Shown here: one piece after another, positions 10,269-52,778 of the stretch | Layout of the letters: every line of letters begins with the position of its first letter | Position numbering within the stretch: the stretch's first letter is position 1 | From: Patescibacteria group bacterium | GTDB lineage: Bacteria > Patescibacteriota > Patescibacteriia > 2-12-FULL-60-25 | Assembly (NCBI GenBank): GCA_031082005.1 | Contig: JAVHLR010000001.1 | Location: 935,251 to 999,250 of the forward strand | Direction of reading: 5' to 3' | Length of the DNA stretch: 64,000 bases | The notes under the pieces: model-generated | What the model saw: the letters and a program-made list of their open reading frames with translations, nothing else | What the model was told of the DNA's origin: nothing | Databases searched by the model: none | Program-made: the position numbers and the translations under genes

Positions 10269-10366
10269 AGGTGACAATGGGGTGCCCGCTTTCTTAACCG
10301 AGGATGTGTTCGAGATAGACTAAAACGAGCCCCGCAGGTAAGAAAGCGGGCACCCCATTGTCACCT
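10269..10366 (+). repeat. Hairpin element copy A (CGAGGA...CCGCAG core)
   Basis: A perfect 28-bp inverted repeat (10269-10296 and 10339-10366) encloses a 42-base core that begins accgaggatgtgttcgag and ends aaacgagccccgcagg. The core is shared almost base for base with the copy at 13172-13213, while the stems differ. The right arm touches the stop codon of the TrmB gene (10365). There is no T-run on either side, so it is not an ordinary intrinsic terminator. Confidence 0.8.
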
Positions 10367-11132
10367 ACCCCATCCTACTTTTATCCACCGGCTTAGCCAC
10401 CTGCCACGCCGCGTTGAACATCGCCCTAAATAAATCCGCCATCTCTTTGTTCTCGACCAAAAAACCCAACGGCTTATTTTTGACTACGTACGCAGCGACC
10501 TTATCATCCACAATATTGATCTCGCCGGTGAAAGGATAAGCGCCATACGGCAGCTGCTTGACTTGCCAATTCGTCAAATCCATCTTCGGTATCGCCATCT
10601 TGGGCTTAAGCGAAAAAATATATCTTCCATGGACCTTGCGCGACATTTTGATGCGTTGATCGGAATTTATGTTCGCCAAGCGCAACGTCCCCTCATCGAT
10701 CGCCGTAAAGCTCAAATACTCACCCTTGGATTGCGCCATGGATTCCCGTAGGGCAATAATCCCCTCTTCCCCCTCAAAAAACCTGACCTGTGGTTTATCA
10801 TCGACCGCGTTGTACAACGCCATGAAATACGGAATCGACTCCTGCAATTTTTGCTTCCTGCTCTCCAACTCATCACGTTCGCGATTCAAGACAGCCGAAA
10901 GCCGCGACGGCGATTCCGCCATAAACAGTGTCTTCTTGTTATCGGTGCTGGACGATGCCAATCCCCGCTTCTTCAACTCGTCCAACGTCAAATATGTCGT
11001 CGAGCGATTCACGCCGGCTTTCTGCGAAATGTCTTGCACGCTCGCCGGCCCGATCTCCAGCATCGCCAGATACACGCACGCCTCCTTGTTGCTCAACCCA
11101 AGTTCCAACAATCTAAGTGTCGCCTCATGCAT
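10365..11132 (-). CDS. TrmB-family HTH transcriptional regulator
   Basis: 255 residues. The first 70 form a winged helix-turn-helix (LLELGLSNKEACVYLAMLEI, then VQDISQKAGVNRSTTYLTLD) typical of the TrmB/sugar-specific regulator family. A short coiled coil follows (LNRERDELESRKQKLQE), then a phospholipase-D-like effector domain of the kind found in this family (VRFFEGEEGIIALRES through GFLVENKEM). Family members sense sugars or metabolites and repress or activate transport and central carbon genes; the ligand here cannot be read. It lies downstream of a GT4 glycosyltransferase's neighbouring region on the same strand with 50 bases between them, so its own regulation is uncertain. Confidence 0.85.
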   Translation of the reverse strand: MHEATLRLLELGLSNKEACVYLAMLEIGPASVQDISQKAGVNRSTTYLTLDELKKRGLASSSTDNKKTLFMAESPSRLSAVLNRERDELESRKQKLQESIPYFMALYNAVDDKPQVRFFEGEEGIIALRESMAQSKGEYLSFTAIDEGTLRLANINSDQRIKMSRKVHGRYIFSLKPKMAIPKMDLTNWQVKQLPYGAYPFTGEINIVDDKVAAYVVKNKPLGFLVENKEMADLFRAMFNAAWQVAKPVDKSRMG

Positions 11133-11182
11133 AAATCGAAATGCTAAATTCCAAATTTCTAATCCCTAACTACTGACTGGAC

Positions 11183-12313
11183 TCACCACTTCGTCAGCAC
11201 CGGCAGGATCTTCTCCGCAGCTGACTTCCAAGTATAGCGCTTGGCCATTTCCAGACCCGCGGCCGACAAAGTCGTGCGGGTTTCCGGCTCCTGGGCGACC
11301 TTATCCATCATCCCGATGAGTTGCTCCGGTTCTTCAGGAGAAAAATATAATGCTGCCTCACCCAAAATCTCTGGCAACGAAGCTGCGTTCGAAGACAACA
11401 CCGGCGTGCCGCAAGCCATCGCTTCGATCGGCGGGATGCCGAAGCCTTCATAAAACGCAGGATGGATGAATGCGTACGCTCCGGCGATGAGATATGGCTT
11501 ATCGGCTTCCGGAACATATCCCAGTTCGAGGATATCTGACTTCACGCTCGAATTCGCGATCTCGTGTTTGATGTCTTCGTAGCCGAAACCCTGCGGTCCG
11601 ATCAAGACGAGTTTGAACGGATCGCCGACGCCGCGCCGCACCTTGAACTGCGTAAACGCTTTCACCAGCATCGCGATATTCTTCTTTGCCTCCAATCTTC
11701 CGATGGCGAGGAAATACGGCTGATTGACGCGATAACGCCGCAATCTTTCTTCCACTGCATCACCGTCTTTGTGCAGCTTATAGATCTCGTGATCGATGCC
11801 GTTATAGGCGATGGCGATTTTGCTGGAATCGATGCCATAGGCTTCAGACATTTCACGGCCGGAGAATTCCGACACACTGATGATGCGCGCCGCTTTCTTG
11901 GCGATCTCTTTCATGGCGCGTTCGTGGATGTGGATCTGACGTTTCTTATACAGTCTCGGCAAACGATGAAAGCCTATGTCATGGACAGTCACGACTGTCT
12001 TTGGCGGAAAGATCCGCGGCAACGTACTTCCAGGCATCCACAGCACATCGATCTTATGGCGCTGCATCTCGTAAGAAAATGGAATCTGCGTCCAGCCGAA
12101 AGGTAAAGGCCACTTAAGCCGCACCTCGTACCAATTCTCGGGCAGCTTCTCCAACCCCCCAGTCAACGGCTTATTCGAGTATAAAATCCACGAGTTACCG
12201 TCGCCTGCCGTCAAGGCCTTAAGTTCCTGGATGATATGCCAGGCGTACCACTCTACCCCGGTTTTTGCCAGCTTATTGGCGCGCGTCGCTTCGATTCCGA
12301 TCAACATAATCAA
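11183..12313 (-). CDS. GT4-family glycosyltransferase (mannosyltransferase-like)
   Basis: 376 residues, the normal length for a single GT4 enzyme. Visible landmarks are the N-terminal IGIEATRANKLAKTGVEWY, VTVHDIGFHRLP, SVSEFSGREM, FLAIGRLEAKKNI in the UDP/GDP-binding half and the catalytic-loop motif EGFGIPPIEAMACGTPV with the two conserved Glu of the EX7E motif. It transfers a nucleotide-activated sugar to a growing glycan in the cytoplasm. The gene stands upstream of the TrmB regulator and is not next to the other glycosyltransferase clusters, so the product is not known. Start ATG 12313 could also be the in-frame ATG two codons later. Confidence 0.88.
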   Translation of the reverse strand: MIMLIGIEATRANKLAKTGVEWYAWHIIQELKALTAGDGNSWILYSNKPLTGGLEKLPENWYEVRLKWPLPFGWTQIPFSYEMQRHKIDVLWMPGSTLPRIFPPKTVVTVHDIGFHRLPRLYKKRQIHIHERAMKEIAKKAARIISVSEFSGREMSEAYGIDSSKIAIAYNGIDHEIYKLHKDGDAVEERLRRYRVNQPYFLAIGRLEAKKNIAMLVKAFTQFKVRRGVGDPFKLVLIGPQGFGYEDIKHEIANSSVKSDILELGYVPEADKPYLIAGAYAFIHPAFYEGFGIPPIEAMACGTPVLSSNAASLPEILGEAALYFSPEEPEQLIGMMDKVAQEPETRTTLSAAGLEMAKRYTWKSAAEKILPVLTKW

Positions 12314-12328
12314 GGCGATTATAACATG

Positions 12329-12366
12329 TAAAAGAAAACGCCGCTCCGCAGGGATGCGGAACGGCG
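12329..12366 (-). terminator. Intrinsic terminator of the 13066-12383 gene
   Basis: cgccgctccgca (12339-12350) pairs with tgcggaacggcg (12355-12366) around a 4-base loop and is followed on the minus strand by TTTTCTTTT. Confidence 0.85.
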
Positions 12367-12382
12367 AGACGCCGCACGGCTC

Positions 12383-13066
12383 TTATGGCAAGACGCGGAA
12401 AGCGCCTGGCGGCGGAAGTCGAGCAGCGACACACAGATCGCGTCTGACCGAGACGCGTCGTCCTATCCTAGGCAACGCTTCGCCGTGCAGCATCCGGATT
12501 ACGGTAAAGCGGCAATCCTGCTCATCGATCGCGAAATGCGGTTCGTACCAAGGTAACGCGTCGAATTTCACCATGATGCCGCTTTTGCGCTCGGATGGTC
12601 TTCCGACCACGCACTCATGCATCTCGTCTGCGCAGCGATACCCGCTCACCACTCCCTCGGCTTCGCCGTGCCTCTCAAGCCAGACCGCGGGGTTCCTGAA
12701 GCAGTCCCAGTGTTCGGCCCCGAAAGTCCACGCATGGATGACCGGAAACACCAAGATAACGATCATGTTCGCCGCAAGCACGAATCGGATCACCCATACG
12801 AAAAGAGGACCCGTTATCCTGGGCAGGAACTTATGGTTCGCCAAACCGCCAACCGCGACAAAAGGCATGAACAGGCCGAAGAGCCACGTGTTCAGATAGT
12901 CAGATGGCAGTTCGATCCGCCAACTGTTGCGGAGCATGTTCATGACCCACACGTTCAGCATGAACGTGAGGAAAAAAATCGGAGCGACTCCGACCAACGC
13001 ACCGAAAGGCCAACCAGGTCTCTCCTCCGCAGGCTCACCGTCGGTATCTTGCTCGTCGTCTTGCAT
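12383..13066 (-). CDS. Unrecognised three-helix membrane protein
   Basis: 227 residues from ATG 13066, chosen because GGAGG lies 5 bases upstream; a GTG two codons earlier overlaps that site. An acidic N-terminus (DDEQDTDGEPAEE) precedes three membrane segments at about residues 20-45, 60-78 and 86-113 (for example VGVAPIFFLTFMLNVWVMNM and RFVLAANMIVILVFPVIHAW). The C-terminal 110 residues are soluble, with paired Cys (HWDCF, GYRCADEMHECV, DEQDCRF, RRDLCV), suggesting a disulfide-bearing or metal-binding domain outside or inside the membrane. I do not recognise the family. It is a stand-alone unit with a strong promoter and terminator. Confidence 0.75.
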   Translation of the reverse strand: MQDDEQDTDGEPAEERPGWPFGALVGVAPIFFLTFMLNVWVMNMLRNSWRIELPSDYLNTWLFGLFMPFVAVGGLANHKFLPRITGPLFVWVIRFVLAANMIVILVFPVIHAWTFGAEHWDCFRNPAVWLERHGEAEGVVSGYRCADEMHECVVGRPSERKSGIMVKFDALPWYEPHFAIDEQDCRFTVIRMLHGEALPRIGRRVSVRRDLCVAARLPPPGAFRVLP

Positions 13067-13094
13067 CACCACCTCCGCGAAAAGGACTTGAGTG

Positions 13095-13123
13095 CTTATA
13101 ACTCACTGCCATAAATAAATCAA
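13095..13123 (-). promoter_or_regulatory. Sigma70-type promoter of the 13066 gene
   Basis: On the minus strand, TTGATT (13118-13123), 17 bases, TATAAG (13095-13100). A small gagt/actc hairpin overlaps the start of the leader. Confidence 0.7.
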
Positions 13124-13171
13124 CCCGCAGCCCTTCTCTTCTTTACCGAGCGTTGGGAAGTTCGATTTCTT

Positions 13172-13213
13172 GACCGAGGATGTGTTCGAGATAGACTGAA
13201 ACGAGCCCCGCAG
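13172..13213 (+). repeat. Hairpin element copy B
   Basis: The core gaccgaggatgtgttcgag ... gaaacgagccccgcag differs from copy A at a single position inside the core. The flanks atttcttg and ctaacaaat pair only imperfectly. It lies in the 224-base gap between the divergent genes at 13066 and 13291. Confidence 0.75.
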
Positions 13214-13247
13214 CTAACAAATGGTTACTGCACGAAGCCCCCCTCTC

Positions 13248-13277
13248 TTGACCAGCTACCCGCATCGTGCCTATTGT
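13248..13277 (+). promoter_or_regulatory. Probable promoter of the 13291 gene
   Basis: TTGACC (13248-13253), 18 bases, TATTGT (13272-13277). The predicted transcript start would be only about 7 bases before ATG 13291. Confidence 0.5.
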
Positions 13278-13290
13278 ATGCGGCGCACCC

Positions 13291-13806
13291 ATGCTAGAAC
13301 GCCCTTTTCGCCAAGCAATGCGCTCCGCTCCAAAAATCACACTCCGCTATGCCGATATCCTGGCAGCCCACTTTGCCGGGAAACGCACCCTACGGGTGCA
13401 TTTCGGCCACACGGACGAAAACGCATTCCTTATCGGACTGCTCTATGAAAGGAGTTGTGTCGATCCCGACATCGGCGCCGATGATGAGCGTCTGCCGATC
13501 GTAAGCGTATGGTGGAGACACCAAGCCGGACACGACATGTCCGCCTCCGGCACCATCGTAGAGATCGGAAGGTTGTCGTCGCTCTACGACGCCTTCACCA
13601 GTTGCTTCATGATCGAAGACCATCTGTACACCCAGGCTTACCGCGACCTGCTGAAAGCCCTGGATGCAGACAGCCCCTTGATCATCGAAGACCACGGCAA
13701 CCTGGACTACTACTTCCCGGTCGCCAGCGGCGACTCGATCATGGCTGTATGCTTCGACCTCGAACTCCTGCAACGGACAGGCGCGAGACTGCCGAAACAC
13801 AGCTGA
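13291..13806 (+). CDS. Unrecognised soluble protein, stand-alone gene
   Basis: 171 residues if started at ATG 13291; a GTG at 13267 and an ATG at 13318 are alternatives, and none has a clear ribosome binding site. The sequence has no membrane segment or signal peptide and is mildly acidic, with aromatic clusters such as VWWRHQAGHDM and HGNLDYYFPVASGD. I do not recognise the family. The opposite-strand frame at 13390-13812 is judged a shadow because the plus-strand product has the better-balanced composition and because a promoter-like sequence precedes it and a perfect terminator follows it at 13835. It is divergent from the membrane ORFan at 12383-13066. Confidence 0.65.
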   Translation: MLERPFRQAMRSAPKITLRYADILAAHFAGKRTLRVHFGHTDENAFLIGLLYERSCVDPDIGADDERLPIVSVWWRHQAGHDMSASGTIVEIGRLSSLYDAFTSCFMIEDHLYTQAYRDLLKALDADSPLIIEDHGNLDYYFPVASGDSIMAVCFDLELLQRTGARLPKHS

Positions 13807-13834
13807 ACGCACCCTCGCGGCTCACGCCACTCGA

Positions 13835-13866
13835 CGAACGGATCTCCTCCGTTCGTTTCCTTTTTA
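13835..13866 (+). terminator. Intrinsic terminator of the 13291 gene
   Basis: cgaacgga (13835-13842) pairs with tccgttcg (13848-13855), followed by tttcctttttat on the plus strand. Confidence 0.85.
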
Positions 13867-13878
13867 TAAAAGGAAACG

Positions 13879-13898
13879 CCCCGAGATTTCTCTCGAGG
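13879..13898 (-). terminator. Intrinsic terminator of the Cas4-like nuclease gene
   Basis: ccccgaga / tctcgagg with a tttc loop, 16 bases past the stop at 13914, followed on the minus strand by a TTTCCTTTT-type run. Confidence 0.75.
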
Positions 13899-13913
13899 CT
13901 TAGCATGGTGAGT

Positions 13914-14657
13914 TCAGACGGTTGATGCTTGAGCTACGTATCTGCAGTGTTCACAGCCCTTTGTCGCGACCGGCGGACGCGTTGCCATGAGGACACGCCG
14001 TGCCTTCCGGAGCAGAGGTTCGACCCATGCATCATCTCCCACGTAGGGAATCACGACCACATCGAACTCCACCCTGGCATCGAACGCGGCGCGATCCGAC
14101 TTGCCGGTGCAATACACGAAGTATCCGCGGTCATCCACCTCGAAGCCGTTCCAACGCAACAGCCGCTGGTAGATCTCCATCTGCCGCTTGTAGCTGTCAT
14201 GCCACTTGCTGTCGAGTGCGGTCACCGTCTCTTCTTTGCCCGTGGCTTTATAATCCACGACGATGAGTCGCTGTGGCGGCCTGACCCAGATGTCATCGAC
14301 CGCGCCGAAGATCAGCAGGTTGGTCTCGCGATGCAGGAAGCGTACGCCTTTGAAGTTATTGCGCCACTCATCGAGCTTGTCGTGCTCGAACGGGATGGCA
14401 TCGATGCCGTAGGCATCAAAGAGCGGATGACGCGAACCCACCGCCCTATGGATATCGAACTCCTTCTTGAGGAGCGTATCGACCGCCGTATTCAGCGTGT
14501 ACGGCGCGCCGGACGGGCGTTTGATGCCCAAGCGGCGATCCAGATAGAAACAGCGCGGGCATTGCATCAGGAGTTCGAGCTTGCTGCGGCTCAACTCATA
14601 CGGCTTGTCAGACTTGGGGTCGAACAACTTGCGTCGCGATTGCTTGGGTTCTGTCAT
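13914..14657 (-). CDS. PD-(D/E)XK nuclease, RecB/Cas4-like with Cys cluster
   Basis: 247 residues from ATG 14657 (GGAGG 5 bases upstream). Near the N-terminus is SKLELLMQCPRCFYLDRRLG, the RecB/Cas4-type opening; then GAVDDIW (first acidic metal ligand), VVDYKATGK (the D...K motif) and QMEIYQRLL (the conserved Q..Y motif IV). At the C-terminus KGCEHCRY supplies two more Cys, so with QCPRC a four-Cys iron-sulfur site as in Cas4/AddB is plausible. The protein would be a single-strand or end-processing DNA nuclease. No cas genes or CRISPR array are in the window, so a repair or uptake role is more likely than adaptation; this is inference. It is a stand-alone unit with its own promoter and terminator. 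Confidence 0.85.
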   Translation of the reverse strand: MTEPKQSRRKLFDPKSDKPYELSRSKLELLMQCPRCFYLDRRLGIKRPSGAPYTLNTAVDTLLKKEFDIHRAVGSRHPLFDAYGIDAIPFEHDKLDEWRNNFKGVRFLHRETNLLIFGAVDDIWVRPPQRLIVVDYKATGKEETVTALDSKWHDSYKRQMEIYQRLLRWNGFEVDDRGYFVYCTGKSDRAAFDARVEFDVVVIPYVGDDAWVEPLLRKARRVLMATRPPVATKGCEHCRYVAQASTV

Positions 14658-14673
14658 ATCTTCCTCCGCGAGG

Positions 14674-14702
14674 AAAGTAAGATAAAAAACGCCACGCGTC
14701 AA
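14674..14702 (-). promoter_or_regulatory. Sigma70-type promoter of the Cas4-like nuclease gene
   Basis: On the minus strand, TTGACG (14697-14702), 17 bases, TACTTT (14674-14679). Confidence 0.7.
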
Positions 14703-14729
14703 TACGTAACGTCTTGTCCTGACGAAAAA

Positions 14730-15734
14730 TCACGAACTGAAAATCGATCGCTTATAACTCTCCAGATTCTCCAACGCGATACCCGTGCCCTTAGCCACGC
14801 ACAGCTGCGGCGTATCCGCCATGAATACCGGCACGCCGGTGGCCTCTGAAATCAAACGATCCAGATTGCGCAATTGAGAAGTACCGCCAGACATCACCAT
14901 GCCTTTTTCCATCACGTCAGCGGAAAGTTCCGGCGGAGTGGCGTGCAGCACATCCTTCACCGCTTCGATTATGCCTTGCAGCTCGTGCTGGATAGCGTCG
15001 GTCACATCGTCGCTCGTCACGGTGATGATGCGCGGCAAGCCGGTTATCATGTCACGACCCTTGGCCTGCATCTCCATCTTTTCCTCCAGATATAAAGCGG
15101 AACCTATGCGGATCTTTATCTCTTCCGAAGAGCGTTCTCCGATGGCCAAGCCGTATTTTCGACGCACGTGCTCCTGGATCGCCAAGTCTATTTTGTTGCC
15201 GCCGATACGCACTGACGATGACGACACGATCCCGCCGAGCGAGATGACCGCGATTTCCGAAGTCCCGCCCCCGATATCCACGATCATATGCCCCGAAGCG
15301 GAACCGATCGGGATATCCGCACCGATGGCGGCCACGACAGGTTCTTTGATGATGTAAGCGGCGCGTGCACCGGCGGAGATCGTCGCGTCGATGACGGCGC
15401 GCCTCTCTGTCGATGTGATGCCGCCCGGTACCGCGACCATAACTTCTGGCCTGAACAGTCGTATACCTCCCACGGCTTTGTTGATGAAATAACGTAACAT
15501 CGCCTCGGTCGTACGATAGTCGGCGATTACCCCATCCTTAAGCGGACGACGAGCAACGATCGTATCCGGAGTTCGTCCCAGCATCTCCTTAGCCTCTTTA
15601 CCCACAGCCAAAACACGTTTATCCGCCAAAGACACCGCGACCACTGAAGGCTCGTTCAACACAATCCCCTTTTTGGGGATATAAACGAGCACCGTGGTCG
15701 TGCCCAAGTCGATTCCTATTTTTTTTGAAAACAT
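14730..15734 (-). CDS. mreB: Rod shape-determining protein MreB (actin-like)
   Basis: 334 residues from ATG 15734, which gives the canonical opening MFSKKIGIDLGTTTVLVYI; an in-frame ATG at 15755 would add 7 residues. The actin-fold ATP-binding segments are visible: phosphate-1 (IDLGTTT), connect-1, phosphate-2 (MIVDIGGGTSEIAVIS) and the adenosine motif (VMSGGTSQLRN). MreB forms membrane-bound filaments that direct elongation of the wall. It is the last gene of the envelope operon that starts at 22414, following DUF4012 and the glycosyltransferases, which ties filament-guided growth to surface polymer synthesis here. Confidence 0.96.
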   Translation of the reverse strand: MFSKKIGIDLGTTTVLVYIPKKGIVLNEPSVVAVSLADKRVLAVGKEAKEMLGRTPDTIVARRPLKDGVIADYRTTEAMLRYFINKAVGGIRLFRPEVMVAVPGGITSTERRAVIDATISAGARAAYIIKEPVVAAIGADIPIGSASGHMIVDIGGGTSEIAVISLGGIVSSSSVRIGGNKIDLAIQEHVRRKYGLAIGERSSEEIKIRIGSALYLEEKMEMQAKGRDMITGLPRIITVTSDDVTDAIQHELQGIIEAVKDVLHATPPELSADVMEKGMVMSGGTSQLRNLDRLISEATGVPVFMADTPQLCVAKGTGIALENLESYKRSIFSS

Positions 15735-15774
15735 AAAATATTTGATGTCACGCATTGCGCGACGATCGCCCGCC

Positions 15775-17988
15775 TCACAGCTTCACTTCGAACGTCCTAT
15801 CGACTAATGAATCCGTCTTATATTCATACCGGGCATCTCCCCACTTTTCCTGGTCTTCTCCCGGTATGGCTGACCTTATGTTCTTACCGAATTTGAGGTC
15901 AAGAGTCAATCCCGTTTTATCCGCTCCTGATTGCTTTTGCCAGTCCAATATGTACTCCCCTTGCCCAGCTTTTTCCGCCACGGATTGCGGCAGTCGATAT
16001 TTGAATTTCAACGTACCGGTCTGTCCCGGTTCGATGGACCAGAACGCCCCGAGCACCGTCTTACCCAGCTCATGCGTGACATCGACACGGCCCGGCACGG
16101 ACACTCCTCCGGTCCGATACCGATCATCCTTCATGGCGCCGGAAGAAGTGATGAGCTGACTACCGTCCGGCACATAGACGCGGGTATAGCTGCGGTAACG
16201 CGTATATCTCCAATCGATGGTCTTGTTCGTGTTCTTATAGGTCAAAGTGACTGTCGCGACCGAACCCTGCGGATCAGTCGCATCCAACTCATACTTCACG
16301 TTCTTATCCATCACGCCGTCCGTCTTGAGCGCCCCTAAATTCGCATCCACGACCCACAGATAGTCATTCCGCGTCGCTTTTGCTCGTGCAGTCCAAGCCC
16401 GTTTATCCAGGATCGTCAGCACCGCCGGATCGCGGGCGTATGCCATAATCTGTTTCCGCTCAAGCGCCTTGGTCACGACATCCAAAAGTTCCCCCCAGCG
16501 TGCAGCCGGCAAAGCCTCTATCTTCGACACCATCTGTTCCCCTAACTTCGAGATGATCGCCTTGCGCTCGCTGACCGGCACGCCCTCTTTGAAGAAACCC
16601 TGTTCCACTTCGTACTGGATGCGGTCAAAAAAATTATTCTCATCGAAAACCTTGCCGTCCACTTCCAGCGAACCCGTCAGATGGAGCAACGACTTGAAGA
16701 ATGAAGGGTTCAGCGCGACCACAGCAGTCGGCGGATGCGGATCCGTCGCACCATATGAAGCTCGCTCACCGGCATAAAAATCCAACAATGTCTCCGCCGA
16801 AGTCGGGAAGTCCGGCGACCAATTCGCATCACGGAAATACCAGGTGCTTAATCCGAGCCTTTCCTTGATGGGCAACGGGGGTTCGGCTTTCCACCTGCCC
16901 TCTGCAGGGCCATCCAATTTGTACACGTCAGCAAATGCGATTTCCGTCATCTCGCCCGCATCCATGGTCATGAGCCCGATATTGCCGATGAATCCTCCAG
17001 TCGGACGTATCTCATCCGTATTCTGCAACAGCAACAGATAGCGCATCTGGTTAGGATATCCGGCAAGAGGAATCAAGACTTCGACCAAAGGCACGGACTG
17101 ATCCAAGGCTTGACGCAGCACCGGCAGATTGTCGGCAAGAGGTTTGAGCGCGGTCCGGAGCGGCGCATAAAGCTCGTCCTGCGGAACGCGGCTCCACAAT
17201 TCCACGGCCAGGTCGATGTTGTCGCGCGCCATCCGAAGTTTCGGTAACGCGTTATCCAACTTCTGCAGCATGTCGCGCTTTTCTTCCGCCGAAAGATCCC
17301 CGTAACTGCGCGTCCCGCCGACGCGGGGTACGCTGCCTTCAGCCGCCGCCCCGCCCTGCAACGCATCCGTCACCACACGAAAGACCTGCAACAATTCACC
17401 AACCCCGTCCAGCGTGCTTATACCCGCAGCCGTCGCTCCTTCCAGACCCTTTATCTGCGTACCGACACCCGGCATATCGCGCCAGAATCCGACGCCTTTC
17501 AAATTCTCTTGCGCCGCCGTGAGTTCGTCACGCGCCTCATCGAGCTTATCAGCCGCTCCTCCCACATCCAATTTCTTCAGGCTATCAGCTGCAGCGTTCA
17601 AGGCGATCTTGGCTGAATTGAATCGGAGCAACGCCTGAACGCCGGCGACGACAGCCGGGACCGTAAAAATCGCGACCAAAAGTACGACGACCAGCACGCC
17701 AGCGATAATCGGCTTTTTCATCCCGAACTTCGGTCTGACCCTGCTGGCTTTCTTTTCTTCGACAGATATCTTCCTGTCATCCTGAGCATGACCCGGAATC
17801 CCCTCACCGTTTCGAGACGCGCCAGGTTGGACTACCGGCCTTAACGCAAAAGATTCCTGCGGCAACGGGCCCTTGGTGGGCGTTTCTTTTGAGGGTTCGA
17901 CACGCTCAACCTTATCCTCCTGCTTCTTAGGCGGAGGTGATTCCGGATAGATCGGACAAGTCAAGAAATTCGGCGATTTATGTGTCAT
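15775..17988 (-). CDS. DUF4012 membrane protein
   Basis: 737 residues. A disordered, charged cytoplasmic tail (1-about 88) is followed by one membrane helix (IIAGVLVVVLLVAIFTVPAV, about 94-115), a helical segment with ALRFNSAKIALNAAADSLKK, and a large extracytoplasmic DUF4012 domain (RYLLLLQNTDEIRPTGGFIG, then NWSPDFPTSAETLL and the DPHPPTAVVALNPSFF region). DUF4012 proteins are widespread in Actinobacteria and CPR next to glycosyltransferase genes; the biochemical role is not known to me, although they resemble LytR-type surroundings. Part of the tail (about 17776-17804) is encoded by a sequence that matches the intergenic cccgga repeats, suggesting insertion of a repeat into the reading frame. 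Overlaps the upstream GT2 gene by 11 bases. Confidence 0.92.
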   Translation of the reverse strand: MTHKSPNFLTCPIYPESPPPKKQEDKVERVEPSKETPTKGPLPQESFALRPVVQPGASRNGEGIPGHAQDDRKISVEEKKASRVRPKFGMKKPIIAGVLVVVLLVAIFTVPAVVAGVQALLRFNSAKIALNAAADSLKKLDVGGAADKLDEARDELTAAQENLKGVGFWRDMPGVGTQIKGLEGATAAGISTLDGVGELLQVFRVVTDALQGGAAAEGSVPRVGGTRSYGDLSAEEKRDMLQKLDNALPKLRMARDNIDLAVELWSRVPQDELYAPLRTALKPLADNLPVLRQALDQSVPLVEVLIPLAGYPNQMRYLLLLQNTDEIRPTGGFIGNIGLMTMDAGEMTEIAFADVYKLDGPAEGRWKAEPPLPIKERLGLSTWYFRDANWSPDFPTSAETLLDFYAGERASYGATDPHPPTAVVALNPSFFKSLLHLTGSLEVDGKVFDENNFFDRIQYEVEQGFFKEGVPVSERKAIISKLGEQMVSKIEALPAARWGELLDVVTKALERKQIMAYARDPAVLTILDKRAWTARAKATRNDYLWVVDANLGALKTDGVMDKNVKYELDATDPQGSVATVTLTYKNTNKTIDWRYTRYRSYTRVYVPDGSQLITSSGAMKDDRYRTGGVSVPGRVDVTHELGKTVLGAFWSIEPGQTGTLKFKYRLPQSVAEKAGQGEYILDWQKQSGADKTGLTLDLKFGKNIRSAIPGEDQEKWGDARYEYKTDSLVDRTFEVKL

Positions 17989-44238: not shown

Positions 44239-44291
44239 TCCTGGACCTCTAACCTTTCTGAAAAGAACGTCATTCCTTTCTGGAATGGCTT

Positions 44292-44320: not shown

Positions 44321-44331
44321 CCCATGAACTC

Positions 44332-44358
44332 AAAAAAGCCATTAAAAACGGCTTTTTT
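44332..44358 (-). terminator. Intrinsic terminator of mltG
   Basis: aaaaaagcc / ggctttttt with a 9-base loop, 19 bases past the mltG stop. Confidence 0.85.
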
Positions 44359-44376
44359 GACGAACATCAACTCAAC

Positions 44377-45962: not shown

Positions 45963-46000
45963 CGTGATTAGGATAGCATTCGGGAAAAAAAACAAAAAAT

Positions 46001-46648
46001 TCAGCGCTTTCCTGAAGGCTCTTTCGTCTTCGGTTGGAACCTACACCACTTAGCCACAGGACACATCCAGCACTTCGGCTTCTTGCCGCCGATACAGATT
46101 TCGCGGCCGAACCTCACCATCGTACGGTTGACGTCGCCCCACGATTTTTCCGGCAAGATCCTTTTGATATCCTGTTCGACTTTCTCGGGCGTCTTGCCGT
46201 CCGACCAGCCCAAACGATGCGCGATACGGAACACGTGCGTATCCACCGCGACTGATGGCACATGAAAACAGACGGACAAGACGCAGCTGGCTGTCTTACG
46301 TCCGACGCCGGGCAAGGTTATCAGCTCATCCATCGTCTTCGGCACCCGGCCATCGAAATCGCGGATCATCCTTTGCGCCAATGCTTTGACTGATTTCGCC
46401 TTGTTCCGATACAACCCGATCGTGTTGATCGATTTCGCGATTTCCGATGCTTTCGCTCGCACCAGGCTCTTCCAATCCGGAAACTTCTTCCGAAACGACG
46501 GAAACATCTTCAGGACCTGTACATCCGTCGTCCGCGCCGAGAATATCGTGGCGATCAAAGAATCCTCCGGATTACCCAAATCCATATCCGCTTTCTGCGG
46601 ATAGCGCTTCTTCAATGCTTCGACGATCTTAACCCCGTCTTCGTTCAT
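46001..46648 (-). CDS. nth: Endonuclease III (DNA glycosylase/AP lyase)
   Basis: 215 residues. DSLIATIFSARTTDVQVLKM, the helix-hairpin-helix LPGVGRKTASCVLSVCF with the catalytic Lys, VDTHVFRIAHRLGW with the catalytic Asp, and the 4Fe-4S loop CIGGKKPKCWMCPVAKWC are all present. The first Cys spacing is 7 rather than the usual 6 residues. It removes oxidised pyrimidines and nicks the abasic site. It lies 9 bases downstream of mutM, forming a base-excision repair pair. Confidence 0.96.
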   Translation of the reverse strand: MNEDGVKIVEALKKRYPQKADMDLGNPEDSLIATIFSARTTDVQVLKMFPSFRKKFPDWKSLVRAKASEIAKSINTIGLYRNKAKSVKALAQRMIRDFDGRVPKTMDELITLPGVGRKTASCVLSVCFHVPSVAVDTHVFRIAHRLGWSDGKTPEKVEQDIKRILPEKSWGDVNRTMVRFGREICIGGKKPKCWMCPVAKWCRFQPKTKEPSGKR

Positions 46649-46657
46649 GTTTTTGAT

Positions 46658-47479
46658 TCACTTTTGGCACTTCGGACAATAATGCGTCCCGCGCTGTCCG
46701 ATGACGATTCGTTTTATCGGCGTACCGCACTTCACGCACTCCTCCCCGCCCCTGCCATAGACCTGGAGTAATTTCAAAAATTTACCCTGCTTTCCCGAAG
46801 CATCGACATAATCGTTCGCGCTCGTCCCACGGTGCTTGATCGAGAGCTTCAATAGCGCCTGGACTTGCTGCGCGATCTCTAATCTTTCTTTTGCCGTCAA
46901 CTCTCCCAAAGGACGAGTCGGTCTGACACCCGCGCGAAACAACGCCTCGTCGGCATAGATATTCCCGATTCCCGCGATCGTCGCCTGATCCATCAGAGCG
47001 ACTTTTATCTTGCGCGTCTTCGGCTTCAATAACCTATCCGCCAATTCCTGCGCGCTTATCTCCAATGGCTCCGGTCCATATGCATCCAAGACTTTCTTCG
47101 CATCTTCCGCCGAAAGACATTTCATGAAACCGAATTGCCTGACATCCGACCAAACTAAATCCTTTCCGCCTTTCTTGCCCTTCAGCTTGAATACCGCCCG
47201 ATCATGTTTACGTGGTTTGTATCTCTTGTCCTCCAAAACCAACCGCCCGGTCATCTTGAGATGCGTAAACATGACCGACCCGTCGACGAACCGCCAGACT
47301 ATGAGCTTAGCCCGTCGTTCGATATTTTTGATCTTCTTGCCCGTCAGACAAGCCACGAATTCCTTCCCCACCGGCTCTTCCCTACCGGACTTCAAAAGCT
47401 CAACGGACTCGATCCGCATCCCCGCCAACGCGTCATCCAATTGTCTTCGGATAGTCTCCACTTCTGGTAGCTCGGGCAT
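46658..47479 (-). CDS. mutM: Formamidopyrimidine-DNA glycosylase
   Basis: 273 residues. Starts MPELPEVETIRRQLDD with the catalytic Pro2 and Glu3; the helix-two-turn-helix region is at DQATIAGIGNIYADEALFRA and the C-terminal zinc finger at CVKCGTPIKR...HYCPKC. The enzyme excises 8-oxoguanine and formamidopyrimidines. It pairs with nth 9 bases downstream. Its 123-base upstream gap is filled by hairpin element copy C. Confidence 0.97.
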   Translation of the reverse strand: MPELPEVETIRRQLDDALAGMRIESVELLKSGREEPVGKEFVACLTGKKIKNIERRAKLIVWRFVDGSVMFTHLKMTGRLVLEDKRYKPRKHDRAVFKLKGKKGGKDLVWSDVRQFGFMKCLSAEDAKKVLDAYGPEPLEISAQELADRLLKPKTRKIKVALMDQATIAGIGNIYADEALFRAGVRPTRPLGELTAKERLEIAQQVQALLKLSIKHRGTSANDYVDASGKQGKFLKLLQVYGRGGEECVKCGTPIKRIVIGQRGTHYCPKCQK

Positions 47480-47505
47480 ACCTATCGTTCATTCTTTTTC
47501 CTCAA

Positions 47506-47612
47506 GCTTATTTGAATTTCGCGTTTTCTGCAGCGAGGACTGTCTGAGGCCGCTATATAAAGGTGCGGCGGCCGAGTTCCGCAGCAAAAGAAAACGCGAA
47601 GTTCAAATAAGC
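47506..47612 (+). repeat. Hairpin element copy C
   Basis: A 24-bp stem (47506-47529 with 47589-47612) with one U-G wobble holds the core gcagcgaggactgtctgag, an inner stem gccgc/gcggc with a loop, and ccgagttccgcagc. The right arm contains the last codons and the stop of gpmI (47603-47605); the left arm is their inverted copy. No T-run follows on either strand. Confidence 0.8.
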
Positions 47613-49177
47613 GGCTTCCCCGTCATTTCCGCCGGCTGCGGCAATTCCATGATCTTCAATATCGTCGGCGCGACGTCAGCCAACATGCCGACCGGTGTAG
47701 TCAAAGAAAGGTCTCCGCCGATCACATCGCCGATCGGTGCTCGCACGCCTTCGAATTGTTTACCGATGATGATGAACGGAACGGGATTGGTCGAATGTTC
47801 CTTATCCATATCGCCCGTCATCAGGTTCTTCACTTCTTCCGCATTACCGTGGTCAGCCGTGATGAGGCACACCCCACCGACCGCCAAGACCGAATCTACG
47901 ATTTTAGCCATGGCCTTATCGACGGTCTGGCACGCTTCGATGGTCGCCTTCTCATCGCCTGTATGTCCCACCATGTCAGGATTGGCGAAATTAAGAATCA
48001 CTAGATCATAACTCCCCTTGGACACCTCTTCAACGACGCGGTCAGCGATGAGCGGCGCCGACATCTCCGGAGCCTTATCATATGTCGAGACACGCGGACT
48101 CGGGATGATGACACGATCCTCACCGGGGAACTCCGATTCGATCATGCCGTTCATGAAGAAAGTCACGTGCGCATATTTCTCGGTCTCCGCGATATGCATC
48201 TGGCGCAAACCGGCATCAGACACGATTTTCGCCAGACAGTTGTCGATAGCCAAAGGTGGATACGCCACCGCCACCGGCAAGTCCTTCTCGTACTCGGTCA
48301 TGGTACCGAAATACAGATCTTTGATCTGCTCACGCGGAAACTTCTCGAAACTCGGCAAGACGAATGCTTTAGTGATTTCACGTGCACGATCAGGACGGCT
48401 ATTGAAGAATATCACCGCATCCCCGTCAGCTATCGTCGCCACCGGTTTCCCGCCCTTCTCCATCACGGTCGGCAGGATCTCTTCGTCATAAACTTTCTGG
48501 TCATACCAATGTTGGACTGCCTCCGTCGCAGAAGGAGCCAAGATCTCACCCACTCCTTTTGCCATGGCATCATAGGCCTTCTGGATGCGATCCCACCGGT
48601 TGTCGCGATCCATGGCGAAATAGCGTCCGCACACGGTCGCGATCTTGCCAATCTTGAATTCCTTCATCTTTTCCTCCAAGTCATGGATGAAGCCTATACC
48701 GCTATTGAAGATGGTGTCGCGACCATCCAGAAATGCATGGACAAAAACCTTGTCGAATTTCTGACGGCTGAACAGATCGAGCAGCGCGTGCAGATGGGCA
48801 TCGGAAGAATGGACGCCTCCAGGCGAAACCAAGCCCATCAGATGGATTTTGCCTCCCGTCTTCTTACAGTGCGCGATAGCATCCAAAAAGACTTTATTGG
48901 AGTAGAACTCCCCGTTCTCGATGGCGAAACTGATGCGCGGAATGCTCTGGAAAAAGATCCTGCCTGCGCCGATGGTCAGATGTCCCACCTCCGAATTTCC
49001 CATCATACCCCACGACAGACCCACGGCAGAGCCTGACGCCAAGACCGTCATCGCCGGATAACTTTCGATATAGTGTCTGAAATTCGGCATCTCCGATTCG
49101 ACGACAGCATTCCCGTCCGCCGGAGGAGCGACGCCTAATCCATCCACGATGATCAATACTACAGGCTTTGGTCTCAT
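47603..49177 (-). CDS. gpmI: 2,3-bisphosphoglycerate-independent phosphoglycerate mutase (first paralog)
   Basis: 524 residues. Landmarks of the alkaline phosphatase-like iPGM family are VLIIVDGLGVAPPADGNAV with a metal-binding Asp, MGNSEVGHLTIGAGR with the catalytic Ser, HAFLDGRDT, CGRYFAMDRDNRWDR, SRPDRAREITKAF, NFANPDMVGHTGD and ITADHGNAEEV. It interconverts 3- and 2-phosphoglycerate in glycolysis with Mn2+. A second complete paralog lies 4 bases upstream, so both are made from one transcript. The catalytic residues look intact in both. Confidence 0.96.
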   Translation of the reverse strand: MRPKPVVLIIVDGLGVAPPADGNAVVESEMPNFRHYIESYPAMTVLASGSAVGLSWGMMGNSEVGHLTIGAGRIFFQSIPRISFAIENGEFYSNKVFLDAIAHCKKTGGKIHLMGLVSPGGVHSSDAHLHALLDLFSRQKFDKVFVHAFLDGRDTIFNSGIGFIHDLEEKMKEFKIGKIATVCGRYFAMDRDNRWDRIQKAYDAMAKGVGEILAPSATEAVQHWYDQKVYDEEILPTVMEKGGKPVATIADGDAVIFFNSRPDRAREITKAFVLPSFEKFPREQIKDLYFGTMTEYEKDLPVAVAYPPLAIDNCLAKIVSDAGLRQMHIAETEKYAHVTFFMNGMIESEFPGEDRVIIPSPRVSTYDKAPEMSAPLIADRVVEEVSKGSYDLVILNFANPDMVGHTGDEKATIEACQTVDKAMAKIVDSVLAVGGVCLITADHGNAEEVKNLMTGDMDKEHSTNPVPFIIIGKQFEGVRAPIGDVIGGDLSLTTPVGMLADVAPTILKIMELPQPAEMTGKPLI

Positions 49178-49181
49178 AATA

Positions 49182-50747
49182 TTATCTAAGCAGGTTATGT
49201 CCGGTCATCTCTTTCGGTTTGTCTATGCCCAACAACCACAACACCGTCGGGGCGATATCGGACAAAGCACCACGTCGCGCGTCCTTTGATTTTACATACT
49301 CACCTGCCGCCAGAAAAGGCACCGGGCTCATATTGTGTTCCGTATCCGCACCGCCGAAAGGCGATTCCATCCTCTCCGCGTTGCCGTGATCCGCCGTGAC
49401 TATAAGCGTTCCCTTGGCTTGATCCACTTTCTTCCAGATGACGCCCAAAGCATCATCCAACGCCTCACAGGCTTTTATGCCGGCATTCAGATTTCCGGTG
49501 TGTCCCACCATGTCGGCGTTCGCGAAATTCACCAAGATGAGGTCATATCCCTTGCCGATCGACTTAGCGACTTCCGTAGCCAGCTCTGCCGCTCTCATGC
49601 GAGGCGAATGGTCATAACGCGCAACTCGTTTTGAAGGGATGCGGATGCGCTCTTCATGGAACCTTGGCCGATCATATCCACCATTGAGGAAGTACGTGAC
49701 CTGCGAAAACTTCTCGCTTTCCGCGATATACATCTGCTTATTGAAACGCAAGGCTTCGACCAACGTGCCCGGCACTTCGCGATGAGGAAAAGCCGAAATA
49801 ACGCTATCCAAATCCTTGGCGAATTCAGTCATGGTCACATACATCAGGTTCTTCAGCTTGACCTTGCGCTTGAAAGCGTTCCGCTCCTTCTTTTCGAATT
49901 CAGGCATGACGAACGGCTTCGTCAACTGTCGCGCGCGATCGGAACGCAGATTCCAAAAGATCATCGCATCGCCGTCCGTCACCGGCGCTTCGCAATAATC
50001 ATTGGGGCAAATCACCGTCGGTGTGATGTACTCGTCGCTCTCTCCACGGGTATAAGCGTGGGTAATCGCCTGCGTCGCCGATTCCGCGACGACTCCCAGC
50101 CCTGACGTCAAAGCGGCATAAGCCATCGCCGTCCTCTCCCAGTACTTGTTCCGATCCATGGCATAGAACCTTCCCATCACGGATGCAATCGTAAAATTCT
50201 TCGGCAACTTCCTTTCCAGCTCGGCGATCAAGGAAGCCGCGCGGAACGGAGACGTGTCACGTCCATCAGTGAAAAGATGCAAAGCGACGCGTTTTAAGTC
50301 GAACGTCGAAGCGAAAGCGATCAATGAGTTGACATGATGCGGCGACGCGTGACCACTTTTTTCGTCAGTCAGAAGACCCATCATGTGCAGCGTGCTCTTA
50401 TTGCGCAGACAGTGCGCAGCCGCCTGCATCAAGGCCTGGTTATTCTCGAACGAACGGCTCCGTATCGCGCGGTCAATCGCCACCTGATCGGTCTCGACTG
50501 CCCTGCCCGCACCGATCGTGGCGTGTCCCGCTTCCGAGTTTCCAGGTTGCCCTGGAGGTAATCCGACGTTGATGCCATCAGCCCAAAGCAGAGAATTCGG
50601 ATATTCATCCCACAACTTATGCCAAACCGGCATCTTGGCGTAAAAGGTAGCATTACCCTCTTTATTCTTGCTTACACCAAAACCATCCCAAACCACCACA
50701 ACCACCGGACCCTTGGAGTGTCTTTCTGACTTGTTTTTTAAGCCCAT
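49182..50747 (-). CDS. gpmI: 2,3-bisphosphoglycerate-independent phosphoglycerate mutase (second paralog)
   Basis: 521 residues with the same motifs as the gene 4 bases downstream: VVVVWDGFGVSKNKEGNAT, GNSEAGHATIGAGR with the catalytic Ser, HLFTDGRDT, MGRFYAMDRNKYWER, RSDRARQLTKPF, NFANADMVGHTGN and VTADHGNAERM. The pair differ through much of their length, so the duplication is old. Both appear catalytically complete; one may act on another phosphate ester. First gene of the pair, with no ribosome binding site seen before ATG 50747. Confidence 0.95.
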   Translation of the reverse strand: MGLKNKSERHSKGPVVVVVWDGFGVSKNKEGNATFYAKMPVWHKLWDEYPNSLLWADGINVGLPPGQPGNSEAGHATIGAGRAVETDQVAIDRAIRSRSFENNQALMQAAAHCLRNKSTLHMMGLLTDEKSGHASPHHVNSLIAFASTFDLKRVALHLFTDGRDTSPFRAASLIAELERKLPKNFTIASVMGRFYAMDRNKYWERTAMAYAALTSGLGVVAESATQAITHAYTRGESDEYITPTVICPNDYCEAPVTDGDAMIFWNLRSDRARQLTKPFVMPEFEKKERNAFKRKVKLKNLMYVTMTEFAKDLDSVISAFPHREVPGTLVEALRFNKQMYIAESEKFSQVTYFLNGGYDRPRFHEERIRIPSKRVARYDHSPRMRAAELATEVAKSIGKGYDLILVNFANADMVGHTGNLNAGIKACEALDDALGVIWKKVDQAKGTLIVTADHGNAERMESPFGGADTEHNMSPVPFLAAGEYVKSKDARRGALSDIAPTVLWLLGIDKPKEMTGHNLLR

Positions 50748-50832
50748 AAGTCAAATCATGATAGCTTTTAGGCAAGATTGGTACAAGACCGGCGGGTGTT
50801 AATTTAGACAAAATAGAGTGTTAACTTTTATC

Positions 50833-50861
50833 TTGACAAAATCCACGTTTTATGCTATTTT
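50833..50861 (+). promoter_or_regulatory. Sigma70-type promoter of the 50988 gene
   Basis: TTGACA (50833-50838), 17 bases, TATTTT (50856-50861). The leader includes a ctccgtt/aacggag hairpin at 50942-50957. Confidence 0.8.
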
Positions 50862-50987
50862 TACACGTTCTCGTATTGTCTCTATTAGGCTTACAGAACG
50901 CTTAACTTGTTCTCTCACAACGTAACAGACACAGGTGACTAGCTCCGTTCAACGGAGTTCAACCCCCAACGCACAAGGAGATTGTCC

Positions 50988-52499
50988 ATGGTTGCTCCCC
51001 GCAAAGGTCCCGCTGGAATCGCAGCTCCCCCGGCCGTCCCCGCCGTCATCACCGCCCCGCCCGCCGATCCGGCTCCCGTTCAGGAAGTCGGGTTCGACAT
51101 CGTGTTCGATGAAACCCAATTCAAGGAGTTCGTCGAACGGGATCCGTCTGGCGAGACGCAAAAACTCGACTTCGGCATCATTGTGCCTGCCGATTTCGCG
51201 AATGCTGTCGTGGCCGCCGCGCGAAACAAGGCTGGCAACGACACGCCGACCGTCTCGCAGTGGATTGAAGCGGCAGCAGAGAAGGCACGACGAGTGAAGC
51301 CAGCCGTCGATACCGGCAAGCTCACGGAAGATCAGGGCGCTTGCGTCCTTATCGTGATCTTGTTCATGGTCTTCACGGCCGCCCGAAAACGCGGCGATTC
51401 CATCGACACGGCAATGAAGGTCGTGGAAAAGACCGTCGATGAGCTGTCGAAACCCGTGACACCTCCTCTTCCCAAGGTTGACCCTGCGGCCATGACCGTC
51501 GAGGCGCCCAAAACGCCTGCGCCGGCAAGCAGCGGATCACCAGCACCGTCGGCAGATGGCAAGATCAAGTTGGTCAAGCCAACAAGCAAGCCGCCAGCGA
51601 CGAGCAATCCTAGCGGCCGCCGTAGCACGACACCGACGGATGTCATGGAACGGGTCGGAGCCGCCGCGGCGGAAGGCGGCTTCGGCGATTCCATCCGTCC
51701 GGACGCAGCAGCGGCGAAGGCGGAAGCTGACGCCAAGCGACAAGCCGATGCCGACAAGGCGGAGGCCGAACACCGAGCAGCCGAGGCCAAGGCAGAAGCC
51801 GAGCGCCAAGCGAAGCAAGCCGAGCGCGAACAACTGCTTGCCGAAGCACGCGCGAAGGCCGATGCCGACAAGGCTGAAGCGAAAGCGGAAGCCGAACACA
51901 AGAAGGCCGAAGCAGACCGCAAGAGAGCGGAAGCCGAGGCCAAGGCCGAAGCCGCAAAGGCGGAGAAGGACCTGCGCGTCAAGCGCGCCGCCAAACTCCG
52001 CGGCGACCGTCTGCGCCTCATCGCTGCTCACACCGCGGCGCGCGCCACAGTCAACGGCCCGGAACGAGCGCAACTCGACGCCGAACACAAGGCGGCGCTG
52101 CTCGAGCTCGACGCGGAGCTGGCCAACTTGGGTGCAAAGCCTTCTGGCAACAGCAGCCGCTTCACCAAGGTCGTTTTCACGATCATCGGGCTCCTGCTCG
52201 CGCTCGGACTCGTCCTCGGTGCGCTCAAGCTCGCCGAGAGCCTCCCCGCTTCGGCGCAGCAGCCCGTCCCCACCGTGACGGTTCCCCCCGTTACCCCCAT
52301 GCCCGGCGTCGAGACCTGTGGACCGGTGACCGCCGCACTTCTCGAGTACTACCTCGGCGGCAACGACCCCACACGCTACGTCGATCGAGGACAGAAATTC
52401 GCCAAGAACGGCGCCCGGCTGCAATGCGAAGGCCGTCAGCGCAGCCTCGGCAACAACTCGTACGACGTCACCGCCTGCAACATCTGTTACACCCCCTAA
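50988..52499 (+). CDS. TolA-like coiled-coil protein with C-terminal membrane anchor
   Basis: 503 residues from ATG 50988 (AAGGAG 7 bases upstream). A Pro/Ala-rich start is followed by a small domain (about 30-165; VGFDIVFDETQFKEFVERDP, TEDQGACVLIVILFMVFTAA), a disordered Pro/Ser linker and a long, highly charged Ala/Glu/Lys coiled coil (about 235-370; KAEAERQAKQAEREQLLAEA). One membrane helix (VVFTIIGLLLALGLVLGALK, about 388-408) leads to an outer Cys-containing domain of 75 residues (VETCGPVTAALLEYYLGGND, LQCEGRQRS, VTACNICYTP). So most of the protein is cytoplasmic and the tail is outside. I do not recognise the family. Stand-alone gene. Confidence 0.8.
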   Translation: MVAPRKGPAGIAAPPAVPAVITAPPADPAPVQEVGFDIVFDETQFKEFVERDPSGETQKLDFGIIVPADFANAVVAAARNKAGNDTPTVSQWIEAAAEKARRVKPAVDTGKLTEDQGACVLIVILFMVFTAARKRGDSIDTAMKVVEKTVDELSKPVTPPLPKVDPAAMTVEAPKTPAPASSGSPAPSADGKIKLVKPTSKPPATSNPSGRRSTTPTDVMERVGAAAAEGGFGDSIRPDAAAAKAEADAKRQADADKAEAEHRAAEAKAEAERQAKQAEREQLLAEARAKADADKAEAKAEAEHKKAEADRKRAEAEAKAEAAKAEKDLRVKRAAKLRGDRLRLIAAHTAARATVNGPERAQLDAEHKAALLELDAELANLGAKPSGNSSRFTKVVFTIIGLLLALGLVLGALKLAESLPASAQQPVPTVTVPPVTPMPGVETCGPVTAALLEYYLGGNDPTRYVDRGQKFAKNGARLQCEGRQRSLGNNSYDVTACNICYTP

Positions 52500-52515
52500 T
52501 CGCGTTCAACGCGAC

Positions 52516-52562
52516 AACGCCCCGTAGCGAAAGCCATTCTGGCTCTCTCGCTGCGGGGTGTT
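52516..52562 (+). terminator. Intrinsic terminator of the 50988 gene
   Basis: aacgccccg (52516-52524) pairs with cggggtgtt (52554-52562), extended inward by agcga/tcgct; a weak T-tract follows. Confidence 0.75.
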
Positions 52563-52600
52563 CCAATTCAATCAACTCAACGATCCATTAAAAAAATCAA

Positions 52601-52702
52601 GCCAGACGAGCCATCGGATTCTGAACCGAGGACTGTCTGAGGCCGCAGTTTATCAGCAACGCGGCCGAGTTCCGCAGGGAAGAATTCGATGGCTTGTCTG
52701 GC
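52601..52702 (+). repeat. Hairpin element copy D
   Basis: A 22-bp stem (52601-52622 with 52681-52702) with two G-U wobbles holds the core ccgaggactgtctgag, inner stem ggccgc/gcggcc, and cgagttccgcag. The core is of the same subtype as copy C. Confidence 0.8.
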
Positions 52703-52716
52703 GACCTAAATAAACA

Positions 52717-52778
52717 AGGAGGGTTTCGAGACAGACTAGACGAGCCCCGCAGCGATAAAAAAATTTCAGTACCCTCCT
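52717..52778 (+). repeat. Hairpin element copy E (copy A/B subtype)
   Basis: ggagggtttcgagacagact followed by agacgagccccgcagc aligns with the A/B core; outer arms aggagggt (52717-52724) and accctcct (52771-52778) pair. It begins 15 bases after copy D in the same orientation. Confidence 0.6.

Follow-up and report, generated by a model that had tools for sequence, protein, structure and literature searches.

The window analysed here, a stretch of 64,000 nucleotides at positions 935251–999250 of contig C3 in a patescibacterial genome of 1.31 Mb (G000), carries five copies of a hairpin element and the remnant of an older one. All five lie where a preliminary description, made by inspection of the sequence, had placed them, and within a fragment that it had claimed at 10211–10231 the 3′ half of a core was found. 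The units are listed with E values from two covariance models, R1 and R2, which were built from 30 type-A and 28 type-C units, respectively; G007 is a sister species.

10216–10228, + strand: old half core CGAGCCCCCGCAG, identified by sequence, remnant of an earlier tandem unit; a homologous remnant lies beside the G007 ortholog
10268–10367, + strand: unit A, type A, 29-bp arms at 10268–10296 and 10339–10367, core at 10299–10337 (R1, E = 3.7e-21)
13151–13238, + strand: unit B, type A, core at 13175–13213, arms decayed and unpaired (R1, E = 4.2e-13)
47506–47612, + strand: unit C, type C, 24-bp arms, core at 47534–47584, GC-rich apical stem (R2, E = 3.7e-20)
52601–52702, + strand: unit D, type C, 22-bp arms, core at 52627–52677 (R2, E = 2.5e-20)
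52710–52778, + strand: unit E, truncated type A in tandem with unit D (partial R1 match at 52710–52756, E = 0.0026)

Long stems of 28, 24 and 22 bp had been claimed for units A, C and D only; these comprised 29, 24 and 22 pairs, and their z-scores against shuffled sequences on the + strand (−12.1, −7.6 and −8.1) showed them to be real. The arms of unit B did not pair (z = +0.7), and unit E retained only an 8-bp stem (z = −1.3). The division into two subtypes (A/B/E vs. C/D) was likewise real. The 3′ box of the core, CGAGNNCCGCAG, had exactly five exact matches in the window, which are the five units; with up to two mismatches allowed, no excess was found there (88 vs. 88.25 expected). The right arm of unit A terminates on the stop codon of a minus-strand ORF (10365–11132), that of unit C overlaps the 3′ end of another (47603–49177), and unit B is followed on the same strand by a sigma70-like pair (TTGACC-18-TATTGT). 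The T-run reported for unit D on the minus strand is visible in the sequence. A separate GC-rich hairpin, CCCCGTAGCG...CGCTGCGGGG, is located beside unit D at 52520–52559 and is conserved in G007, which lacks unit D.

Searching G000 with the gapped core pattern CGAGGAN{15,45}CGAGNNCCGCAG gave 28 occurrences (27 forward and 1 reverse), and the same pattern read backwards gave none. At a cut-off of E up to 0.01, model R1 matched 32 times and R2 27 times, which combined to 37 places, 36 on the + strand and 1 on the − strand. Nine of these had been missed by the core pattern and were new to the models, while the other 28 were all present in the training alignments. Contig C3 carries all 37, of which 33 are located beyond 640 kb and 4 before it. 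The covariance search proposed in the preliminary description thus yielded further copies, and its central observation, a dispersed hairpin element with a conserved core, was confirmed and extends beyond one CPR genome to many phyla. That description had seen the element dispersed in one CPR genome; sister species were found to replace the arms in place.

The core is a conserved asymmetric internal loop, with CGAGGA..GAG opposite CGAG..CCGCAG, closed by an outer stem of approximately 25 bp; type C adds an apical stem, formed by the segment between GAG and CGAG. Within the alignments, whose units were chosen by the exact core pattern, the core boxes were invariant or nearly so. The arms of the 30 type-A units behaved differently: both members had changed in 20 of 21 arm pairs, and the covariation score was 0.627, compared to a mean of 0.161 for shuffled arms and at most 0.188 for slid ones, in support of the earlier claim that pairing rather than sequence is kept in the stems. 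Cruder measures, namely counts of pairs altered in both arms and of further pair types, were hardly above shuffles (reached by 19 and 30 of 500, respectively). In the apical stem, the first inner pair was Watson-Crick in 27 of 30 CPR units (shuffle maximum 18) and in 82 of 90 others (maximum 55), whereas the fourth pair in CPR units merely equalled the shuffle maximum. Since both the outer and the apical stems covary, what is conserved is the internal loop, and the helices on either side of it are free in sequence. Folding of the unit as a whole was also reflected in genome_contigs loci (including a few CPR records, as in the ORF orientation counts below), where the flanks paired over at least 10 positions in 124 of 130 units vs. 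50 of 130 with swapped flanks. A continuous stem next to the core (8 in 10 pairs) was present in 27 of 90 genome_contigs units, the simple search having failed in the other 63; the stem was interrupted in the betaproteobacterial copies that were inspected, and in other phyla the arms were semi-conserved within a genome.

Mismatches in the arms, read on the CGAGGA-bearing element strand with equal penalties, were more often G.T than A.C (34 vs. 15 in 55 stems of the window's family and 36 vs. 12 in 30 other stems), a skew that strand-biased mutation could also produce. With the arms considered alone, the element strand was the more stable in 42 of 70 stems, the less stable in 25 and equal in 3, and in a further set of 134 it was favoured in 101 vs. 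33. As the wobble pairs favour the element strand, it is probably the strand that folds; the wobble data do not distinguish DNA from RNA. The inner part of the loop, CTGTCTGAG..CGAGTT, recurs in another hairpin with a different closing stem, GGCAT/ATGCC (G007 counterpart of locus 776709), which suggests that the internal loop may be an independent module. Two unrelated units have a core that is broken up by a GC-rich hairpin, CCCCGCCGCTCGCGAGCAGCGGGG: the G007 counterpart of 1070771, whose arms are still perfect despite the interruption, and L044:4686–4709.

The units are intergenic, often just past a stop codon or just ahead of a promoter. In 29 of 55 units from G000, G007, G006 and G012 the stop codon of an opposing ORF lies 7–35 nt from the core (a raw count without control), so that the hairpin reaches it or comes very close; the arm at locus C includes the last codons and the stop codon of the gene. 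A sigma70-like promoter pair follows on the same strand in 9 of 55 units (one doubtful, being inside a neighbouring unit) vs. 2% of random windows, which include coding DNA, and 17 of 55 units have neither neighbour. Among 46 genome_contigs units that could be classed with crude ORF callers and without control, an opposing ORF was on the 3′ side in 32, and only 2 lay between divergent ORFs; this classing left out 26 units at locus edges, 23 inside a long, probably often spurious, ORF and 2 without a left ORF. Where the flanking ORFs were co-directional, the folded strand was antisense in 17 and sense in 12 of the genome_contigs loci, which rules out a strict antisense orientation to genes; the corresponding numbers in G000 were 11 and 5. 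Of 56 long-stemmed units, 34 have CCCC immediately 3′ of the hairpin. C-runs of at least 5 were counted in a sample of G000 sequence in which units are over-represented; they numbered 183 on the + strand and 28 on the − strand beyond 640 kb, and 26 and 37, respectively, before it. This asymmetry parallels the bias of the units for one strand and one half of the contig, and may cause it.

For comparison with G007, 34 G000 units were queried, of which 31 had anchors on both sides in the sampled parts of G007; the anchors disagreed at 1126893 and 923723, leaving 29 loci. At six orthologous loci (637501, 826092, 923856, 1043845, 1076986 and 1217423) the core was whole or nearly whole in both genomes, with one and two changed box letters in the G000 core at 637501 and 1217423, respectively. 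The arms at these loci were 0.47–0.61 identical, compared to 0.61–0.68 for the best of 200 left-arm shuffles, and the 3′ flanks were 0.61–0.83 identical. Orthology was established from the anchors on both sides, and it rests on them at 826092 and 923856, where flank identity was low (0.61 and 0.62). The subtype differed between the two genomes at 637501 and 1043845. Locus 869522 was left out of the arm comparison, the sister unit being elsewhere in the gap. At 827908 and 945549 (unit A of the window), the gene and an older unit are separated in G007 by a new unit whose arms are unrelated; one arm of this older unit was 0.92 identical to that of G000 and the other 0.47 and 0.70 at the two loci. 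The oldest remnants lie further out, the perfect-armed unit thus being on the gene side of older, damaged ones. The unit at 948425 (unit B) is decayed in G000, and G007 has a unit there with other, perfect arms and a variant core.

Elsewhere, homologous arms were kept, at 690033, 1052201 and 1070771 (about 80% DNA identity) and at 1041600; at 1052201 and 1070771, changes in one arm are compensated in the other. For unit C, an ortholog is present in G006, a damaged copy in G007 and none in G008, a genome of the same genus as G000; between G000 and G006 both arms of unit C had changed together, with compensatory changes that include the last codons of the gene. Ten loci had no core in G007, some of them with other hairpins; what occupies a given locus in sister species is type A, type C, another hairpin or nothing. 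The G007 counterparts of 809469 and 1040375 (contig C3 of G000) carry a different long-armed hairpin, built around a core of its own, GATGCAGNACGCGAA ... GACAAAGTNATGCGC, once with CGAGCAACG/CGAGTAGCG boxes like those outside betaproteobacterial units. No clean target-site duplication was seen, and at several empty G007 sites more than the hairpin differs. A source for the left arms of 28 units was not found in 371 kb (28%) of G000: they had 20 13-mer matches vs. a control mean of 12.2, and copying of arms from elsewhere in the genome was rejected. The single left arm with a run of such matches pointed to an older tandem unit about 250 nt away. Replacement of arms in place raises the question of how a cell makes a new 25-bp perfect palindrome around a fixed core.

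Within the window's family, the core pattern occurred in 11 of 41 genomes and 8 of 21 genera; G006 and G012 had 10 matches each and G007 had 15. At least one single match among these genomes, in G024, resembles a chance match in coding sequence and was left out of the unit counts. In genome_contigs, where many records are metagenome bins, the type-C pattern matched at least 120 stretches from about eleven phyla, according to record titles. These were mostly Beta- and Gammaproteobacteria (Gallionella, Dechloromonas, Azonexus, Niveibacterium, Methylotenera and others), and the matches also included Nitrospira, Coriobacteriia, Lachnospiraceae, Bacteroidales, Spirochaetes, Omnitrophica, Myxococcota, Desulfobulbaceae, Gastranaerophilales and several CPR lineages. 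One viral contig in IMG/VR carried the pattern, and the family was therefore not taken to be phage cargo; among plasmids, a betaproteobacterial composite copy, used as query instead of the bare core, gave one distant match. The Niveibacterium and Dechloromonas copies (L225–L239) embed the core in a composite repeat of greater size, which also contains a TACTTTCTTTGTGCGAACAAAGAAAGTA-type palindrome and has CGAGCAGCGCAG boxes on the outside; these repeats often occur as pairs that face outward, about 220–340 bp from each other. Identical boxes flank the internal loop from Ca. Uhrbacteria to Betaproteobacteria, Nitrospira, Coriobacteria and Lachnospiraceae; because they recur across these groups, something probably recognises them, and knowing this recogniser would explain many intergenic hairpins of these genomes.

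The preliminary description knew of no named family, and none was found here: Rfam gave no family at gathering score and only a tRNA in the window, seven carrier loci gave just four sub-threshold matches (E up to 5), and searches of open-licence PMC papers by core strings and by topic returned no description. The CPR units used in the tests for tags, R boxes and T-runs were the 56 with long stems; another 15 that lacked one were left aside. A T-run followed the hairpin in 2 of 56 on the element strand and in 3 of 56 on the other; its scarcity, already remarked for the window, is thus general, and the intrinsic terminator was rejected as the main reading. GTAG was found 5′ of the hairpin in 0 of 56, CTAC 3′ of it in 5 of 56, and CGTC at the hairpin ends in 0. 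The R-box pair of attC (R″ RYYYAAC, R′ GTTRRRY) was found at the hairpin base in 0 of 56, and attC was rejected as the main reading. The Y1 transposase (PF01797) was absent in G000, G008, G012 and 8 of 16 other carriers, and pieces of it occurred in G006 (4, all at contig ends), in G007 (1) and in the other 8 carriers. None of 33 Y1 loci, comprising 12 of the 29 matches from the search that included G000 and its sister genomes and all 21 from other carriers (up to 1.5 kb on each side, three overlapping), carried the core; the match to a known transposon end that would have spoken against the earlier description was thus not seen, and RAYT/REP proper was also set aside as the main reading. The REP feature of dispersed intergenic palindromes with one folding strand is present in the family. 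RVT_1 (PF00078) was absent in G000 and G012 and present in G007 (2) and G008 (1), and retro-copying by an RVT_1 enzyme of its own was rejected given its absence in G000. The resident transposase or reverse transcriptase expected for a derivative of IS200/IS605 or of a retroelement was thus missing from G000 and G012, and G006, G007 and G008 had one or both. A large autonomous copy with a gene inside the type-C core was not found either, as 7 of 9 type-C 5′ half sites in G000 were complete cores and the remaining two (637501 and 1126782) were also matched by model R2.

A fixed centre and arms that are replaced at the same spot point to an undescribed kind of mobile or self-renewing hairpin. We tentatively read the family as a non-autonomous, REP-like mobile DNA hairpin that would act as a folded single strand and have its arms renewed at insertion, and we give this a little less than an even chance. 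The element strand, when single-stranded in replication, repair or DNA uptake, would fold; a putative structure-specific enzyme would recognise the internal loop and insert the hairpin, often 5′ of C-runs; both arms would be renewed at insertion, e.g., by fold-back copying, and would decay afterwards. Units that start out with perfect arms, decay and are replaced where they stood, with arms not found elsewhere in the sampled genome, fit such an insertion of a folded single-stranded hairpin. Copy number and orientation bias in G000 are consistent with it, as are the covariation of arms and apical stem, the wobble asymmetry, the flank pairing (124 vs. 50 of 130), the turnover at six loci, the new units beside old ones at 945549 and 827908, the ten loci without a core in G007, and the CCCC 3′ of 34 of 56 units together with the strand bias of C-runs. 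Against mobility count the failure to find an enzyme (Y1 and RVT_1 are absent in G000, though some exist in sisters), an arm source in 28% of G000 or a clean target-site duplication, the single viral contig, the changed box letters at 637501 (1) and 1217423 (2), the semi-conserved arms in other phyla with 63 of 90 failed stem searches, the compensated homologous arms that also fit selection in place, and the strand-biased mutation that may underlie the wobble asymmetry. A further step, which we regard as possible but doubtful, is that the family is mobile DNA of a new class: a folded-strand element whose only defining feature is its small conserved internal loop, which makes fresh perfect complementary arms at each insertion, places new units on the gene side of old ones and has passed from one bacterial phylum to another with no resident transposase of a known type.

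The main rival is a host 3′-end element, i.e., an RNA hairpin that would end or insulate transcription or protect mRNA 3′ ends, with the internal loop as a putative site for an RNA-binding protein; stem turnover would then be fast because any stem works. We judge it unlikely, yet it retains considerable weight, given that stop codons and promoters are in contact with units and that compensatory changes have preserved some arms. The opposing stop codons (29 of 55, uncontrolled), the promoter-like pairs (9 of 55 vs. 2%), the rarity of units between divergent ORFs (2 of 46, crude ORFs, uncontrolled) and the compensatory changes at locus C between G000 and G006 agree with it, as do the tandem G.A steps of the motif, which occur in RNA internal loops. 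However, the folding strand is not consistently the transcribed one (antisense 17 and sense 12 in genome_contigs, 11 and 5 in G000), most units have no T-run, no Rfam family matches, and sister species have type A, type C, other hairpins or nothing at the same locus. Neutral palindromes, kept perfect by hairpin-templated repair (quasi-palindrome correction) and with a core kept by gene conversion, would need neither mobility nor function, and near-perfect arms of unrelated sequence and the compensatory double changes at 1070771 and 1052201 are what they would show; unrelated arms beside 73–83% identical flanks (637501, 1043845, 1076986 and 1217423) are hard to obtain by point correction, and the type swaps at 637501 and 1043845 and the spread over phyla make this explanation very improbable.

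Two further explanations were considered. A classical REP family mobilised by RAYT, the Y1 transposase, would account for dispersed intergenic palindromes in tandem and outward-facing pairs with wobble on one strand, and Y1 pieces do exist in G006, G007 and 8 of 16 other carriers; given their absence in G000, G008, G012 and the other 8, the 0 of 33 Y1 loci with a core and the 0 of 56 hairpins with GTAG, we consider it highly unlikely, and for G000 itself a RAYT-driven REP is mostly refuted. Similarly remote is a recombination site of a structure-specific tyrosine recombinase, like integron attC, in which the folded strand would be recombined downstream of genes: the folded strand is antisense to the gene whose stop codon the unit abuts in 29 of 55 and tandem units occur, but no unit of 56 has an R-box pair, the apex rather than the base is conserved, and orientation is mixed in genome_contigs loci.

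We file the family as interspersed bacterial palindromes in a new form, REP-like in behaviour and without the defining REP/RAYT, attC and terminator features that were tested for. Like REP, BIME and REPIN with RAYT, these are short interspersed intergenic palindromes with tandem and inverted pairs of which one strand folds; unlike them, the arms are unrelated from copy to copy and replaced in place, the conserved internal loop is near the apex, and there is no GTAG tag, no Y1 gene in G000 and no core flanking the examined Y1 genes. Integron attC sites fold on the antisense strand right after a gene and have variable but complementary arms. The present family shares such arms, and this position in about half of its units, and differs in having no R boxes, in its conserved apex and in that no cassette arrays were seen. 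According to the available text of one paper, GTAG- and CGTC-tagged palindromes form small families across phyla, as here, the CGTC ones not being associated with transposase genes (PMC3733652); most GTAG stems there are 6–9 bp, in contrast to about 25 bp in this family, which has neither end tag, and that text contains no word beginning with CGAG. The passages available on the repetitive hairpin-forming elements of mitochondria (PMC2800124) describe similarly mobile-looking intergenic hairpins whose mechanism is not known and in which hairpin and repeat are one and the same; these passages do not mention arms that differ from copy to copy around a conserved internal loop, as in this family.

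A strict orientation relative to the replication strand was rejected, as the 4 units in the other half of G000 keep the same strand and the 13 units of a one-contig Nitrospirales chromosome had no consistent relation to GC skew. In both G000 (C3) and G007 (C1), GC skew is strong in one half of the chromosome (mostly 0.10–0.17 in size) and near zero in the other, while the genes of G000 are strand-biased in both halves despite the one-sided skew. This half-chromosome skew resembles, but differs from, the whole-chromosome disparity described, in the part of the source available, for some Microgenomates (PMC7143001).
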